Under the pieces are notes generated by a model. It searched no databases. It was given only the letters and a program-made list of their open reading frames with translations, and was not told where the DNA came from. The translations under genes were made by a program, and so were the position numbers. A DNA stretch of 23,041 bases from positions 1-23,041 of the IMG/VR virus record IMGVR_UViG_3300025872_003212. One strand, written 5' to 3'. Shown here one piece after another: positions 6,492 to 23,041 of this stretch (positions are counted from its first letter, which is position 1; every line of letters begins with the position of its first letter). The stretch comes from a virus.

Positions 6492-6863
6492 ATGGTTCCT
6501 CTTCATTCACCTTCAGAGTACTTGTTTCATTTACATACAACAAGTTCTGGGGAGGCGAAACGAATGTGGAGACAAAACATAAAAGAAAGTTGGAATCATC
6601 AATGTGCCTATTGTGGTTCAGAAGAAAATCTCACAATTGATCATATTGTTCCACAGTCAAAAGGAGGAATGGACTTTACAAAGAATGTAATCTGTTGCTG
6701 TCATTCTTGTAATCAATCAAAGGGACATGAGTACTGGAAACTGTGGTATGTTCAACAAGATTTTTATAGTGAAGAAAGGGTTGAAAAAATAGAAGAATGG
6801 ATGAAACCAGATCCTCCTGTTAACTTATTCAAATATCGCCCAAGAAGGAATAATCTAACTTGA
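6492..6863 (+). CDS. Free-standing HNH endonuclease
   Basis: This 123-aa protein has a zinc-bound HNH nuclease fold: C38-x2-C41, D50-H51 in TIDHIVPQSKGGMD, N65, and C70-x2-C73 followed by N74. H51 is the likely general base, with the metal bound by H51 and N74. Small stand-alone HNH genes of this type are common between genes in T4-like phages, where they can promote spread of neighbouring sequence, although some take part in DNA packaging or repair. It is not inside a recognisable intron. A good ribosome binding site (AAGGAAG) precedes the ATG. It is the last gene before the fibre cluster. Confidence 0.9.
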   Translation: MVPLHSPSEYLFHLHTTSSGEAKRMWRQNIKESWNHQCAYCGSEENLTIDHIVPQSKGGMDFTKNVICCCHSCNQSKGHEYWKLWYVQQDFYSEERVEKIEEWMKPDPPVNLFKYRPRRNNLT

Positions 6864-20800: not shown

Positions 20801-21414
20801 TATCTACAAGTGTAAGTGGTGGTACTGGATCTCTTACACAACTTAATGTCTCTGGAATTTCAACACTAGGAACTGTAAGAATATCATCGGGTATCGTAAC
20901 AGCAACCTCTGGTGTTGTGACTTATTATGGTGATGGTTCTCAACTATCAGGTATTTCTGCTGGTTTATCAATAACAGATGATACTTCAACAAACGCAACC
21001 AGATATGTTTTATTTGATGATGCAACTTCAGGAACAATCACTGGAGCAAATGTATCATCTACAAAACTCACATTTAATCCATCGACAGGAAACTTAGTTG
21101 CTGGTGGTACGGTCACAGCAAACTCTGACGAAAAACTGAAAACAAATATTAAAACTATAGATAATGCACTGGATAAGGTTTTGTCTTTGAGAGGTGTAGA
21201 GTTTGATCGTATAGATACTGGAGATCATCAAATCGGTGTGATTGCACAAGAAGTTGAAAAGATTATTCCTGATGTTGTTTATCCAAAACAACCAGCACCT
21301 GATTATGAAACTAAGTCAGTTGCTTATGCGAATTTAGTAGGTCTCTTAATTGAAGCAATCAAAGAACAAAATCAAAGAATTGATGAACTGGAAAGAAGAC
21401 TAGGAGAAGGTTGA
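17803..21414 (+). CDS. Tail fibre protein with C-terminal S74 self-cleaving chaperone, 1203 aa
   Basis: The N-terminus MSNNREFSQLAS is typical of cyanophage fibres. The body repeats modules shared with the two preceding fibres, including two internal copies of a FEITGD-to-QPNSVALG segment (around 18727 and 20066) and five 9-residue GIATYATSA-like units. The last 96 residues form a Peptidase_S74 intramolecular chaperone: SDEKLKTNIKTIDNALDKVL, then GVIAQEVEKIIPDVV, VAYANLVGLLIEAIKEQN and a coiled-coil end. S1108 and K1113 have the same spacing as the catalytic Ser-Lys dyad of endosialidase fibres, so cleavage just before S1108 after trimer folding is expected. The fibre probably contacts the host cell. 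Confidence 0.93.
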   Translation: MSNNREFSQLASNIQVNENSNFIGIATEGNYSVGIATSSFKVNSSGLVEIKSIQCSDNISLSVGGISTLGTVKISSGIVTATSGVVTYYGDGSKLSNIISGIAVQDQGSTVGTSVTTLNFSGATVSVSNAVNGISTITVTASGIITYVDNAGIATYATNAGLSTNLKGGLAGNIPYQSAPDTTTFLANGSSGTILQSNGVGNAPSWVTAAPAGAITGLTIRDEGTIVGGANSVSQLNFVGNIVSVASTAGIATVTFLDYVANAGVATYATSSGIATYASSAGISTYATSAGISTYASTAGVATALQNSRTFEITGDIVASPISFDGTGNVSLAATIQPNSVALGTDTTGDYVQSITGTANQITVTGGTGESSTPTLSVPNQFTAPQDVTVTRDLQVNRNLNVNGNITIGGTSATIFSQTLNIYDPDIVLGYRTDGNGNDISNDTTANHGGIAIASTEGNPLVQLFIAGIETNPATYKKIMWFKAGEFAGLGTDAWLSNYAVGIGSTQFPTGTRLAAGNVQFTENDLAVVRNVNASGVITTNNLNVTGVGTFLSSGLKIRNPANTFEYSITGGAITANRILNLPVITITDTVAVLNLSQTFGAQQNFNDTISAIGTLSLTGSSTGTHVFGSNQTSGTLTFGGTSGTGTITLGRATTSQQTDIQAGASGVGTTKTINFGTGGLSGSFTQINIGPTAGIGTVSINTGTNLGIGSARPTSKLDVVGDAKFTGVVTATSFSGNASSATYASNAGVATALQNSRTFEITGDIIASPISFNGTGNVSLAATIQPNSVALGSDTTGNYVASVTNGSYITGADGGSEGASLTIGVAATSANTASQVVARDSSGNFSAGTITASLTGTATSTTNIPNLTGDITSNGTATSIASGVIVNDDINASAGIVDTKLATISTAGKVSNSATTATNANTASTIVARDASGNFSAGTITANLTGTASTASFATTSYNLTDAANITTGTINSARLTGTYNISISGNASSATYATTAGVSTSVSGGTGSLTQLNVSGISTLGTVRISSGIVTATSGVVTYYGDGSQLSGISAGLSITDDTSTNATRYVLFDDATSGTITGANVSSTKLTFNPSTGNLVAGGTVTANSDEKLKTNIKTIDNALDKVLSLRGVEFDRIDTGDHQIGVIAQEVEKIIPDVVYPKQPAPDYETKSVAYANLVGLLIEAIKEQNQRIDELERRLGEG
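18589..18723 (+). repeat. Five 27-bp tandem repeats
   Basis: Units start at 18589, 18616, 18643, 18670 and 18697. They encode AGVATYATS, SGIATYASS, AGISTYATS, AGISTYAST and AGVATALQN. Copies differ at several bases, so the array is older than the 63-bp duplication. Confidence 0.85.
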
Positions 21415-21415
21415 T

Positions 21416-23041
21416 ATGCCAGTTGTTGTAGGTCTAAGTTCAATCACTGGAGTTTCCACGGCAACAAGTGGCACTGATGCTGCTTACAAAGAGTATGTTG
21501 ATAATAAACTAGGTGGATCAGTTCCAAGCATTTATGGAAATGAGAATGAGTTTCTCTTTACGGATGGAAGTACAATATCGTGGGAACCAATACAGGCAAG
21601 TCAAGAATATGCTATGGCAGGGTCTTATACTTTTAATTTACCGTCACAAGCAAAAGAGTTACTGATAGAAGCAACAGGTGCAGGTGGTGGAGGAGCAAGT
21701 GGAAATACTGATGGAAGTTCTTATGTATCAGCAAGCATTTGGGCATTAAGAACTTCTGGTTTTGCTACTAATGCTATTAATGCTCTTACTTTTGGAAATA
21801 ATACTTATGTTGCTGGTGGTGCTAGTGGAGTTTTGAATACCTCAACAGATGCGATTCAGTGGACTTTAAGAACTGCTAGTTTTGGTGGAAGTAGTGTTAT
21901 TGGTCTCACCTTTGGAAACAATATTTATGTTTTTTGTGATAATAGTAGCAGATTAAATACCTCAACAGATGCAATCACTTGGACTTTAAGAACCATTGGA
22001 TTTTCTAATCCTGCTTTTGATGTTACTTATGTAAATGATATATTTATTGCTAGTGTGTCTAATGGACCTTTGATTGTTTCGACCGATGCAATTCAATGGA
22101 ACGCAAGAACTTCACCATTTTCTTCTATTCTTGCTCTAAGTTTTGCTTATGTAGATTCTAATTATTATGTAGCAGGACAGTCTGGAATTTTTGCATCATC
22201 CACAGACACGATCACCTGGACTTTAAGAACTTCTGGTACTGGTAGTTCACTTAATGCTCTTACTTACGCAAACAATACTTATGTTGCGGGAGGAACATCA
22301 GGAACTCTCACAGTATCACCAAACACCACAACAGGATTCTCAGGTGGTGGAGGTGGTGGAGGTGCATTAGCATCATGGATAATTTCTAAGGACCAAATCA
22401 CAGGTTCTTCATTAACCGTAGATGTTGGTGCTGGTGGAACTGCTGGAACTGCTGGTGCTGGAACCACAGTATCTTGGACTGGACCTGGAGGAACTTATAG
22501 TATAACTGCGAATGGTGGAAGTCCTGGAACCAATACTGGACTTGCATTAGGTGGATCTGGAGGAACAGTACCAGCAACAACCACAAATTATCTTCAAGCA
22601 TCTGCTGGTGCTGCTGGTGTTGCTGGAAGAGTATCATCAGTTTTTGGATTTTCAGCACCAACCACAACTGCTTCTTTCCAAACTTCTGGTGGTGGAGGAG
22701 GTGCTTATAGTTCTTCTGGTGGTGTGAGTATTGGTGGTGCTGGAGGAACGATTAATTATTATGCAAACACTAACGCAAACTCTAGTATTGATATTACTGG
22801 AAGAATTGCTCCTAATATTTCTGGATTATCTTATGGTAATGGTGGAGGAGGTGGAGGAGGTTCAAGTGAGAATGCTCTTTATTGGACTTTAAGAACTTCT
22901 GGGTTTTCAAATATAGTTAGAACTTTTCTTTTTCAAGATAATACTTATGTTGCTGCTGGTGATAGTGGAAGATTAAATACTTCAACAGATGCAATCACTT
23001 GGACTTTAAGAACTTCCGGTTTTGCTACGCAAACAATTACT
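21416..23041 (+). CDS. Glycine-rich adhesin-like virion protein with WTLRT repeats (3' end outside window)
   Basis: The ATG follows the S74 fibre stop by one base; AGGAG (21402-21406) is the ribosome binding site. The frame stays open for 542 codons to the edge. Residues about 66-93 (GSYTFNLPSQAKELLIEATG, then AGGGG) look like the start of a glycine-rich domain, which resumes at residues 310-316 (seven glycines) and continues VDVGAGGTAGTAGAG to ITANGGSPG, with further Gly runs at 425-429 and 476-482. Between them lie about five blades of a 40-50-residue repeat (NTSTDAITWTLRTSGF, NNTYVAGGASG), and the repeat restarts after residue 486. This resembles BNR/sialidase-like propeller blades. Position after the fibre and glycine runs suggest a receptor-binding tip protein (inference). 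Confidence 0.8.
   Translation, partial: MPVVVGLSSITGVSTATSGTDAAYKEYVDNKLGGSVPSIYGNENEFLFTDGSTISWEPIQASQEYAMAGSYTFNLPSQAKELLIEATGAGGGGASGNTDGSSYVSASIWALRTSGFATNAINALTFGNNTYVAGGASGVLNTSTDAIQWTLRTASFGGSSVIGLTFGNNIYVFCDNSSRLNTSTDAITWTLRTIGFSNPAFDVTYVNDIFIASVSNGPLIVSTDAIQWNARTSPFSSILALSFAYVDSNYYVAGQSGIFASSTDTITWTLRTSGTGSSLNALTYANNTYVAGGTSGTLTVSPNTTTGFSGGGGGGGALASWIISKDQITGSSLTVDVGAGGTAGTAGAGTTVSWTGPGGTYSITANGGSPGTNTGLALGGSGGTVPATTTNYLQASAGAAGVAGRVSSVFGFSAPTTTASFQTSGGGGGAYSSSGGVSIGGAGGTINYYANTNANSSIDITGRIAPNISGLSYGNGGGGGGGSSENALYWTLRTSGFSNIVRTFLFQDNTYVAAGDSGRLNTSTDAITWTLRTSGFATQTIT

Follow-up and report, generated by a model that had tools for sequence, protein, structure and literature searches.

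Putative beta-propeller inserts in the loops of a probable glycine-rich tail adhesin from uncultured cyanophages

The stretch of DNA analysed here (the window) makes up a complete virus record, 23,041 bases long, in which psbA, talC, zwf and gnd-type genes were found; because of these genes we take the virus to be a cyanophage. At the 3' end lies an open reading frame, gene A, which is still open at the contig end, and as the record ends with the window it holds no further sequence of this gene. A scan of IMG/VR initially yielded five loci, among them the contig IMGVR_UViG_3300006917_000237 (L006), the first 262 bp of which match window positions 22780-23041 exactly, so that L006 can be regarded as the continuation of gene A. 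Joined solely on the basis of this exact 262-bp overlap between two phage contigs, gene A and L006:263-934 encode a protein of 765 aa with 5 + 6 blades, closing with a third glycine-rich segment; this supplies the full gene, of which an earlier reading made from the letters only (the sequence-only reading) had seen the truncated part. The features are as follows, with loop numbers (L1, L2, L5) taken over from the protein gp24 of phage Pam3 by alignment (MAFFT) and inspection by eye.

17803-21414, + strand: upstream tail-fibre gene with a Peptidase_S74 intramolecular chaperone at its end (PF13884, E=4e-16) and matches to several PHROG long-tail-fibre families
21416-23041, + strand: gene A, truncated 5' part, 542 aa, continuing in L006:263-934
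21416-21610, + strand: fibre-type N-terminal leader, residues 1-65 (ITGVSTATSGTDAAYKEYVDN ... LFTDGSTISWEP), kept in paralogs A, B and C; phrog_863 match at residues 43-104
21611-21739, + strand: glycine-rich/TNF-like domain segment 1, residues 66-108, with the first half of loop L1 (GAGGGGASG) at its end; the PF21722 match starts here after excision of the inserts
21740-22330, + strand: insert 1 in the L1 tip, residues 109-305, five 40-aa blades at 109, 149, 189, 228 and 268; relatives have 7 blades or multiples of 7 at L1
22331-22861, + strand: glycine-rich/TNF-like domain segment 2, residues 306-482 (SGGGGGGGA ... YGNGGGGGGG), reaching from the latter half of L1 into the first half of L5; 97.7% nucleotide identity with L002; PF21722
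22862-23041, + strand: short linker, then the beginning of insert 2 at the tip of L5, with blades at residues 490 and 529; L006 extends insert 2 to six blades, followed by domain segment 3 (GNGGNGIKGGGGGGGG ... GGTGGDGYVRISWY)

Gene A starts one base past the stop of the S74 tail-fibre gene, and an S74-type fibre ORF is also found directly 5' of gene A in the related loci L002, L003, L004 and L005. The ORFs that follow gene A in related loci are, first of all, paralogs B and C. Each phage has three paralogous adhesin genes (A, B and C), with protein sizes from 590 to 3,600 aa.

The sequence-only reading described a glycine-rich start, an interruption of about 215 residues by five blades, and a return at a run of seven glycines, and this description was confirmed. 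W.xRT motifs start at residues 109, 149, 189, 228 and 268 (spacing 40, 40, 39 and 40), and runs of glycine occur at 90-93, 310-316 (G7), 425-429 (G5) and 476-482 (G7); the strict blade array (109-305) comprises 197 aa and the interruption, from 94 to 309, 216 aa. Glycine content is 29% at residues 310-482 versus 10% at 96-309. The second blade set that had been noticed after the second G7 run is equally real, with motifs at 490 and 529 and a continuation in L006. A blade HMM detected the 40-aa unit in more than 100 ORFs from related viral contigs, where it recurs in identical positions relative to the glycine segments that flank it, so that the pattern is not due to chance; low complexity arising by chance was dropped as an origin.

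The glycine segments on either side of the blades were compared with PF21722 (Gly_rich_2, gathering cut-off 24.3 bits), the family with which the sequence-only reading had suggested comparison. With its blades in place, the window protein scored 13.6 bits, under the cut-off, while removal of both blade arrays from gene A gave a full-length match (46 bits, E = 8e-12, profile 3-226 of 226). Gene B of L003 shows the same effect: the intact protein has no PF21722 match up to E = 10, a score of 26.8 bits is reached over profile positions 1-225 when its single array is cut out exactly (34.1 bits was also recorded), and control excisions of the same length shifted by -60 or +60 residues gave 7.7 bits or no match. 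Because exact and not shifted excision restores the match, the blades lie within one domain; judged by these profile scores, the glycine segments are a single discontinuous domain that holds the blade arrays, which upholds the earlier proposal that blades occupy loop positions of a glycine-rich domain. The excised scaffold also matches PHROG minor tail protein families (phrog_754/phrog_356) through to its end.

Members of this adhesin family are present in dozens of uncultured viral contigs. In tblastn searches of the phage collection the excised scaffold gave no match, and genes A, B and C together with the excised scaffold gave blade matches only and no glycine scaffold. A scan of genome contigs for cellular relatives with an alignment returned 582 pattern matches, none of which was confirmed, and a scaffold-only profile found nothing among PDB sequences.

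In the aligned, excised scaffolds the inserts occupy three loop tips, L1, L2 and L5; gene C has a further insert position that precedes the domain. The L1 socket lies between GAGGGGASG and SGGGGGGGA, the L2 socket after VGAGG, and the L5 socket between GGGGGGG and AGNGGNG.KGGGG. Genes A fill L1 and L5, L010 and L021 fill L1, L2 and L5, genes B fill L1 and sometimes L5, and genes C fill L2 and L5. Empty sockets were found at L1 in gene C (GGGGGASGRYTGTLGSGGGGGSG) and at L5 in gene B of L003 and others, and each of the three tips is occupied in some paralogs and vacant in others. Relatives with other inserts at the same glycine positions, for which the sequence-only reading had suggested looking, thus exist, as do relatives in which the position is empty.

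Structures were predicted with AF2 for L002 gene A, with two inserts (model 1), and for L003 gene B, with a single insert and a register-checked alignment of 48 rows (model 2). In model 1 the propellers were not built (mean pLDDT 41), and the confident parts are confined to the surroundings of the inserts (about 61-100, 401-460 and 861-896), all of them glycine domain, where the flanking segments mostly reach pLDDT 73-91; residues 61-100, the counterpart of segment 1 in the window, have 73-88. Model 2 reached a mean pLDDT of 70.6. Its insert (107-383), mostly at 72-91 with the first two blocks at 58-59, has a strand list in which seven four-strand blades can be read; residues 461-466 and 509-588 of its glycine domain are below 50.

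A Foldseek search of the PDB with the L003 gene B model gave 1,364 matches at E<=1e-3, of which the best 50 are beta-propeller proteins or complexes containing one. Among the best matches in BFVD are BNR, DUF6242 and the tail proteins of further phages, so that propellers in phage tails are as such not new. A full-alignment profile retrieved from PDB sequences the designed propellers Tako8, Ika8 and Ika4 as well as chance matches. The propeller-like nature of the inserts is therefore upheld by profile, AF2 and Foldseek results on relatives. Sequence comparison and prediction revealed neither a continuous propeller with the glycine runs as linkers nor relatives that lack insert variation.

A regularity that could not be seen in the sequence-only reading concerns the number of blades, counted with the 40-residue HMM in all loci. 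The great majority of complete inserts carry 7 blades, and a length of 266-305 aa, which corresponds to this number, was measured for about 60 of the 85 unique inserts. Longer inserts fall on steps at 569-598, 881-907, 1157-1195, 1386, 1773 and 2060-2068 aa, the gaps between the lower steps being empty, so that among about 80 related inserts the arrays mostly have 7, 14, 21, 28 and up to about 49 blades. Twelve of the 85 spans lie off the steps: two of 338 and 343 aa (L039 and L031) and ten short ones (14-256 aa). Two of the short spans are the inserts of window gene A (196 and 223 aa), and another, of 236 aa, is site 3 of gene C in the window phage, where the long tail segment contains an apparent degenerate seventh blade; the others come from the divergent loci L013, L030 and L038, in which weak blades may have been missed. 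Inserts with one propeller are to some extent passed on within a site, so that independent evidence for a rule of seven comes mainly from the multi-propeller arrays. Within the blade, positions 1, 4, 5, 23, 30, 35-37 and 39 are conserved, and the most variable positions are among 9-17, 28, 31 and 33.

Additional loci have arrays of 14, 21 and 28 blades, some of them in proteins without a glycine scaffold. One such viral contig (L074:2082-11171) has three consecutive genes with 21, 21 and 28 blades and short non-glycine ends, which indicates that propeller arrays occur without the scaffold too. At the upper end of the range, gene C-like homologues (L023:3469-14238, L030:2897-11854, L031:4279-14265 and L027:9303-17483) encode 2,700 to 3,600 aa and have a total of about 60 to 80 blades each; their long arrays, with spans of up to 2,068 aa, may represent several propellers in tandem within one loop.

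Seven-bladed propellers are thus indicated in the relatives by blade number in multiples of seven, by AF2 and by Foldseek, whereas window gene A has five blades in insert 1 and six in insert 2 and stands outside this pattern. The two inserts may be a real exception or an assembly error. That the short-read assembly collapsed arrays of seven blades, in which case this exact protein would not exist, seems to us a question on which the arguments balance evenly. The related inserts come in multiples of seven and the contig terminates within insert 2, both as expected from a collapse; however, exact repeats in the joined A-C cluster do not exceed 45 bp, which is short for a collapse though still compatible with one, and five-bladed propellers are known in phage receptor-binding proteins (phi11, PMC4901313). 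A collapse would concern the window copy only and not the family, and is compatible with the explanation of the architecture that we favour below.

The scaffold and its inserts differ in how well they are conserved. When the window phage is compared with its nearest relative, identity is 86-99.7% for the scaffolds but only 71-79% for four of seven inserts. In the comparison with L002, the scaffold segments of gene A have 96-99% nucleotide identity and its inserts 79% and 71%; inserts 1 and 3 of gene C have 72%, and the inserts of gene B 100% (insert 1) and 95%. As identity differs from insert to insert, inserts have been replaced or diversified individually. In other phages, inserts that lie at different sites, or belong to different paralogs, of one genome have exact tracts of 54-117 bp in common. 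By global alignment, which was used because BLAST proved unreliable owing to the repeats, the nearest relative of an insert occupies the same site in 25 of 52 cases versus 7.5 expected. This points to strong inheritance at the site with exchange on top of it, and the jumping of whole cassettes between sites is not the rule.

Among known systems, Pam3 gp24 is probably the closest in kind. Its published structure shows a TNF-like plus glycine-rich domain bearing six loops (L1-L6), the variable distal tips of which are the proposed receptor site, and its authors note a likeness to gp38 and ALK (PMC9608196). Both proteins appear to share a nearly full-length PF21722 domain (borderline in gp24), paired glycine-rich motifs in long loops, variable tips and a cyanophage tail (PDB 7YPX; 7yfw). 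However, gp24 has short hypervariable peptide tips in a protein of 280 aa, whereas here three tips can hold propellers in proteins of 590 to 3,600 aa; there are three paralogs per phage, and the N-terminus is unlike that of gp24, which trimerises via an N-terminal helical bundle and has gp25 as its dedicated Tfa-type chaperone. With 23.8 bits against PF21722 (profile 10-225), just below the cut-off, the gp24 tip is by its sequence score a borderline member of this family. An hhalign comparison of the scaffold with gp24 gave no signal, so that the link to gp24 rests on PF21722 and a weak Foldseek match. In the Foldseek search of the PDB with the scaffold of model 1, the best match was a tail-tip chain of mycobacteriophage Bxb1 (9d93_Qa, prob 0.97, E = 0.03), followed, with weak E-values, by ALK/LTK glycine-rich domains and the Pam3 fibre (7yfw, E=3.4). 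In Bxb1 and in the minor tail families that match across the excised scaffold (viewed overall), no sign of propeller inserts was seen.

The sequence-only reading had invoked polyglycine tip adhesins of the gp38 type. Glycine-rich motifs do alternate with hypervariable segments as in S16/T2-type gp38 (PDB 6F45), where the gene also directly follows a fibre gene, and this part of the comparison stands, yet the alternation is common to PF21722. The core of gp38 is a beta-helix with a Trp-bearing helical attachment domain and short loops; here there is no sequence match, 6F45 is absent from the Foldseek matches of model 1, and the N-terminal region predicted by AF2 has one 5-residue helix and is mostly strands and coil (low confidence). 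Membership of the gp38 group was accordingly rejected, and S16 gp38 is regarded as a functional analogue whose core and attachment domain differ. The interpretation offered in the sequence-only reading is thus supported in part: its nearest family, and a better reference than gp38, is PF21722, of which the TNF-like/glycine-rich tip of Pam3 gp24 is a borderline member.

Propellers have a proposed receptor-binding role in phi11 Gp45 (5 blades, proposed GlcNAc binding), PRD1 P2 and PhiKZ gp131C (7 blades) (PMC4901313), but there the propeller is single and placed in series, not within a glycine loop. Exactly seven 40-aa blades make up a free-standing 290-residue product of Actinomycetia phage DSL-LC01 annotated as 'photosynthesis system II assembly factor' (WJZ48562.1); this and DUF6242-like propellers share the 40-aa blade but are stand-alone propeller genes without a scaffold. 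The same phage encodes an 'ALK tyrosine kinase receptor' (L102, OQ999401.1, 8222-16783), a tail-region protein of 2,853 aa without blades, the glycine-rich stretch of which (about 200-450) could explain this annotation. No described case of propellers combined with glycine-rich phage fibres was found in the open-access papers searched.

Of the possible explanations for this architecture, we favour one that we consider probable: the product of gene A is an adhesin that binds receptors at the tail tip of a T4-like cyanophage, with exchangeable propeller modules in the loops of a PF21722 core. It draws on the discontinuous domain, the insert positions, blade numbers that are mostly multiples of seven, empty and filled sites, the contrast between scaffold and insert and the identity tracts across sites, all read from the sequences, and on the predicted folds of propeller and scaffold. 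The core would be a single PF21722 domain resembling that of Pam3 gp24, in which long loops of paired glycine-rich strands project from a TNF-like beta-sandwich, and the loop tips would carry complete beta-propellers, at L1 and L5 in window gene A and at L2 too in other copies. The two ends of a closed propeller adjoin, and for this reason it can be spliced into a loop with the scaffold undisturbed. The scaffold would then stay near constant while the propellers are diversified or replaced, partly via recombination among the many similar 120-bp blade units of the three paralogous genes in each phage. In this way the range of surface receptors recognised (most likely cell-surface glycans) could change and the part in the virion would not. 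The constant domain may hold the propellers at the tail end, their faces binding surface molecules, for which the analogy with phi11 Gp45 (PMC4901313) makes glycans the most likely candidates; a trimer like that of gp24 would present six or more propellers per tip. The tail context consists of the S74 fibre upstream and the similarity of the excised scaffold to PHROG minor tail proteins. We infer a tail-tip position, a trimeric state, binding to a receptor, a glycan ligand and a role in host range.

Propellers within the same architecture might instead be glycan-degrading enzymes and not pure binding modules, as in phage endosialidases, which use propellers (PMC4901313), and the blades do resemble BNR/Asp-box sialidase repeats. 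They fail the Asp-box signature S-x-D-x-G-x-[TS]-W, however: in S35-T36-D37-A38-I39-T40-W1 the S is conserved in 99%, the D in 86% and the W in 100% of blades, but the required Gly is Ile in 97%. No catalytic set was identified in an unsystematic look, and inserts that are highly variable, tandem and up to about 49 blades long fit avidity better than catalysis, so that we regard an enzymatic role as unlikely. Somewhat less likely still is that the propellers serve as spacers or structural decorations of the tail and that the host is recognised elsewhere. Structural propellers do occur in tails, for example in the SU10 nozzle protein (PMC9509320), and a conserved scaffold by itself is no proof of binding, yet divergent inserts on a 96-99% conserved scaffold are the pattern of a specificity determinant, and the insert sites appear to correspond to the loop tips for which receptor contact has been proposed in Pam3 gp24.

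It is very unlikely that the propellers are independent units strung together through glycine-rich linkers that do not themselves constitute a domain. Such linkers are common between domains, and arrays without a glycine scaffold exist, as in L074 (21, 21 and 28 blades); here, however, the three glycine segments score end-to-end as PF21722 only after correct removal of the inserts, they have conserved strands mostly at pLDDT 73-91, and empty sites occur.

Extended from gene A to the family, the adhesin with propellers in its loops would be a constant scaffold with fixed sockets that receive seven-bladed propellers, singly or in tandem (up to about seven per socket), the blades of which recombine between sockets and paralogs to give a phage a large and quickly reassorting repertoire of surface-binding heads; this broader statement has, in our judgement, an even chance of being correct. 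In known glycine-rich phage tips the variable unit is a short loop peptide, whereas here it would be a whole folded domain in a defined socket, to which evolution would add or from which it would remove blades seven at a time. If true, this would explain how cyanophages could switch receptor with the tail not rebuilt. It would also provide natural examples of domain insertion into loops and make host-range predictions testable from propeller content.

Several other observations were made in these contigs. A fibre protein of L002 (2-2776), related to window 14211-17774, has a repeat block VYVFDRVG...SVATSADGKTIIVGA (FG-GAP-like) that is absent from the window copy and is possibly another propeller inserted in a fibre. 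An ORF of kelch-like repeats (AGYFGGG...MDKxxYSTDT) lies upstream of the tail cluster in L003 (2-1171). In the window, a free-standing HNH endonuclease ORF (6492-6860; PF14279, PF01844) is located between metabolic and tail genes. The psbA gene of the window (D1, 344-2600) contains a minimum of three Rfam group I introns (1450-1659, 1980-2231 and 2278-2505) that interrupt it, with an HNH ORF (819-1508) within the first intron and, ahead of the last exon, an apparent tiny exon (HERNAH, near 2266-2286) about 20 bases long. D1 lacks its first part before 344, where an unrelated ORF (3-377) stands, and a further psbA intron upstream of this position is possible.
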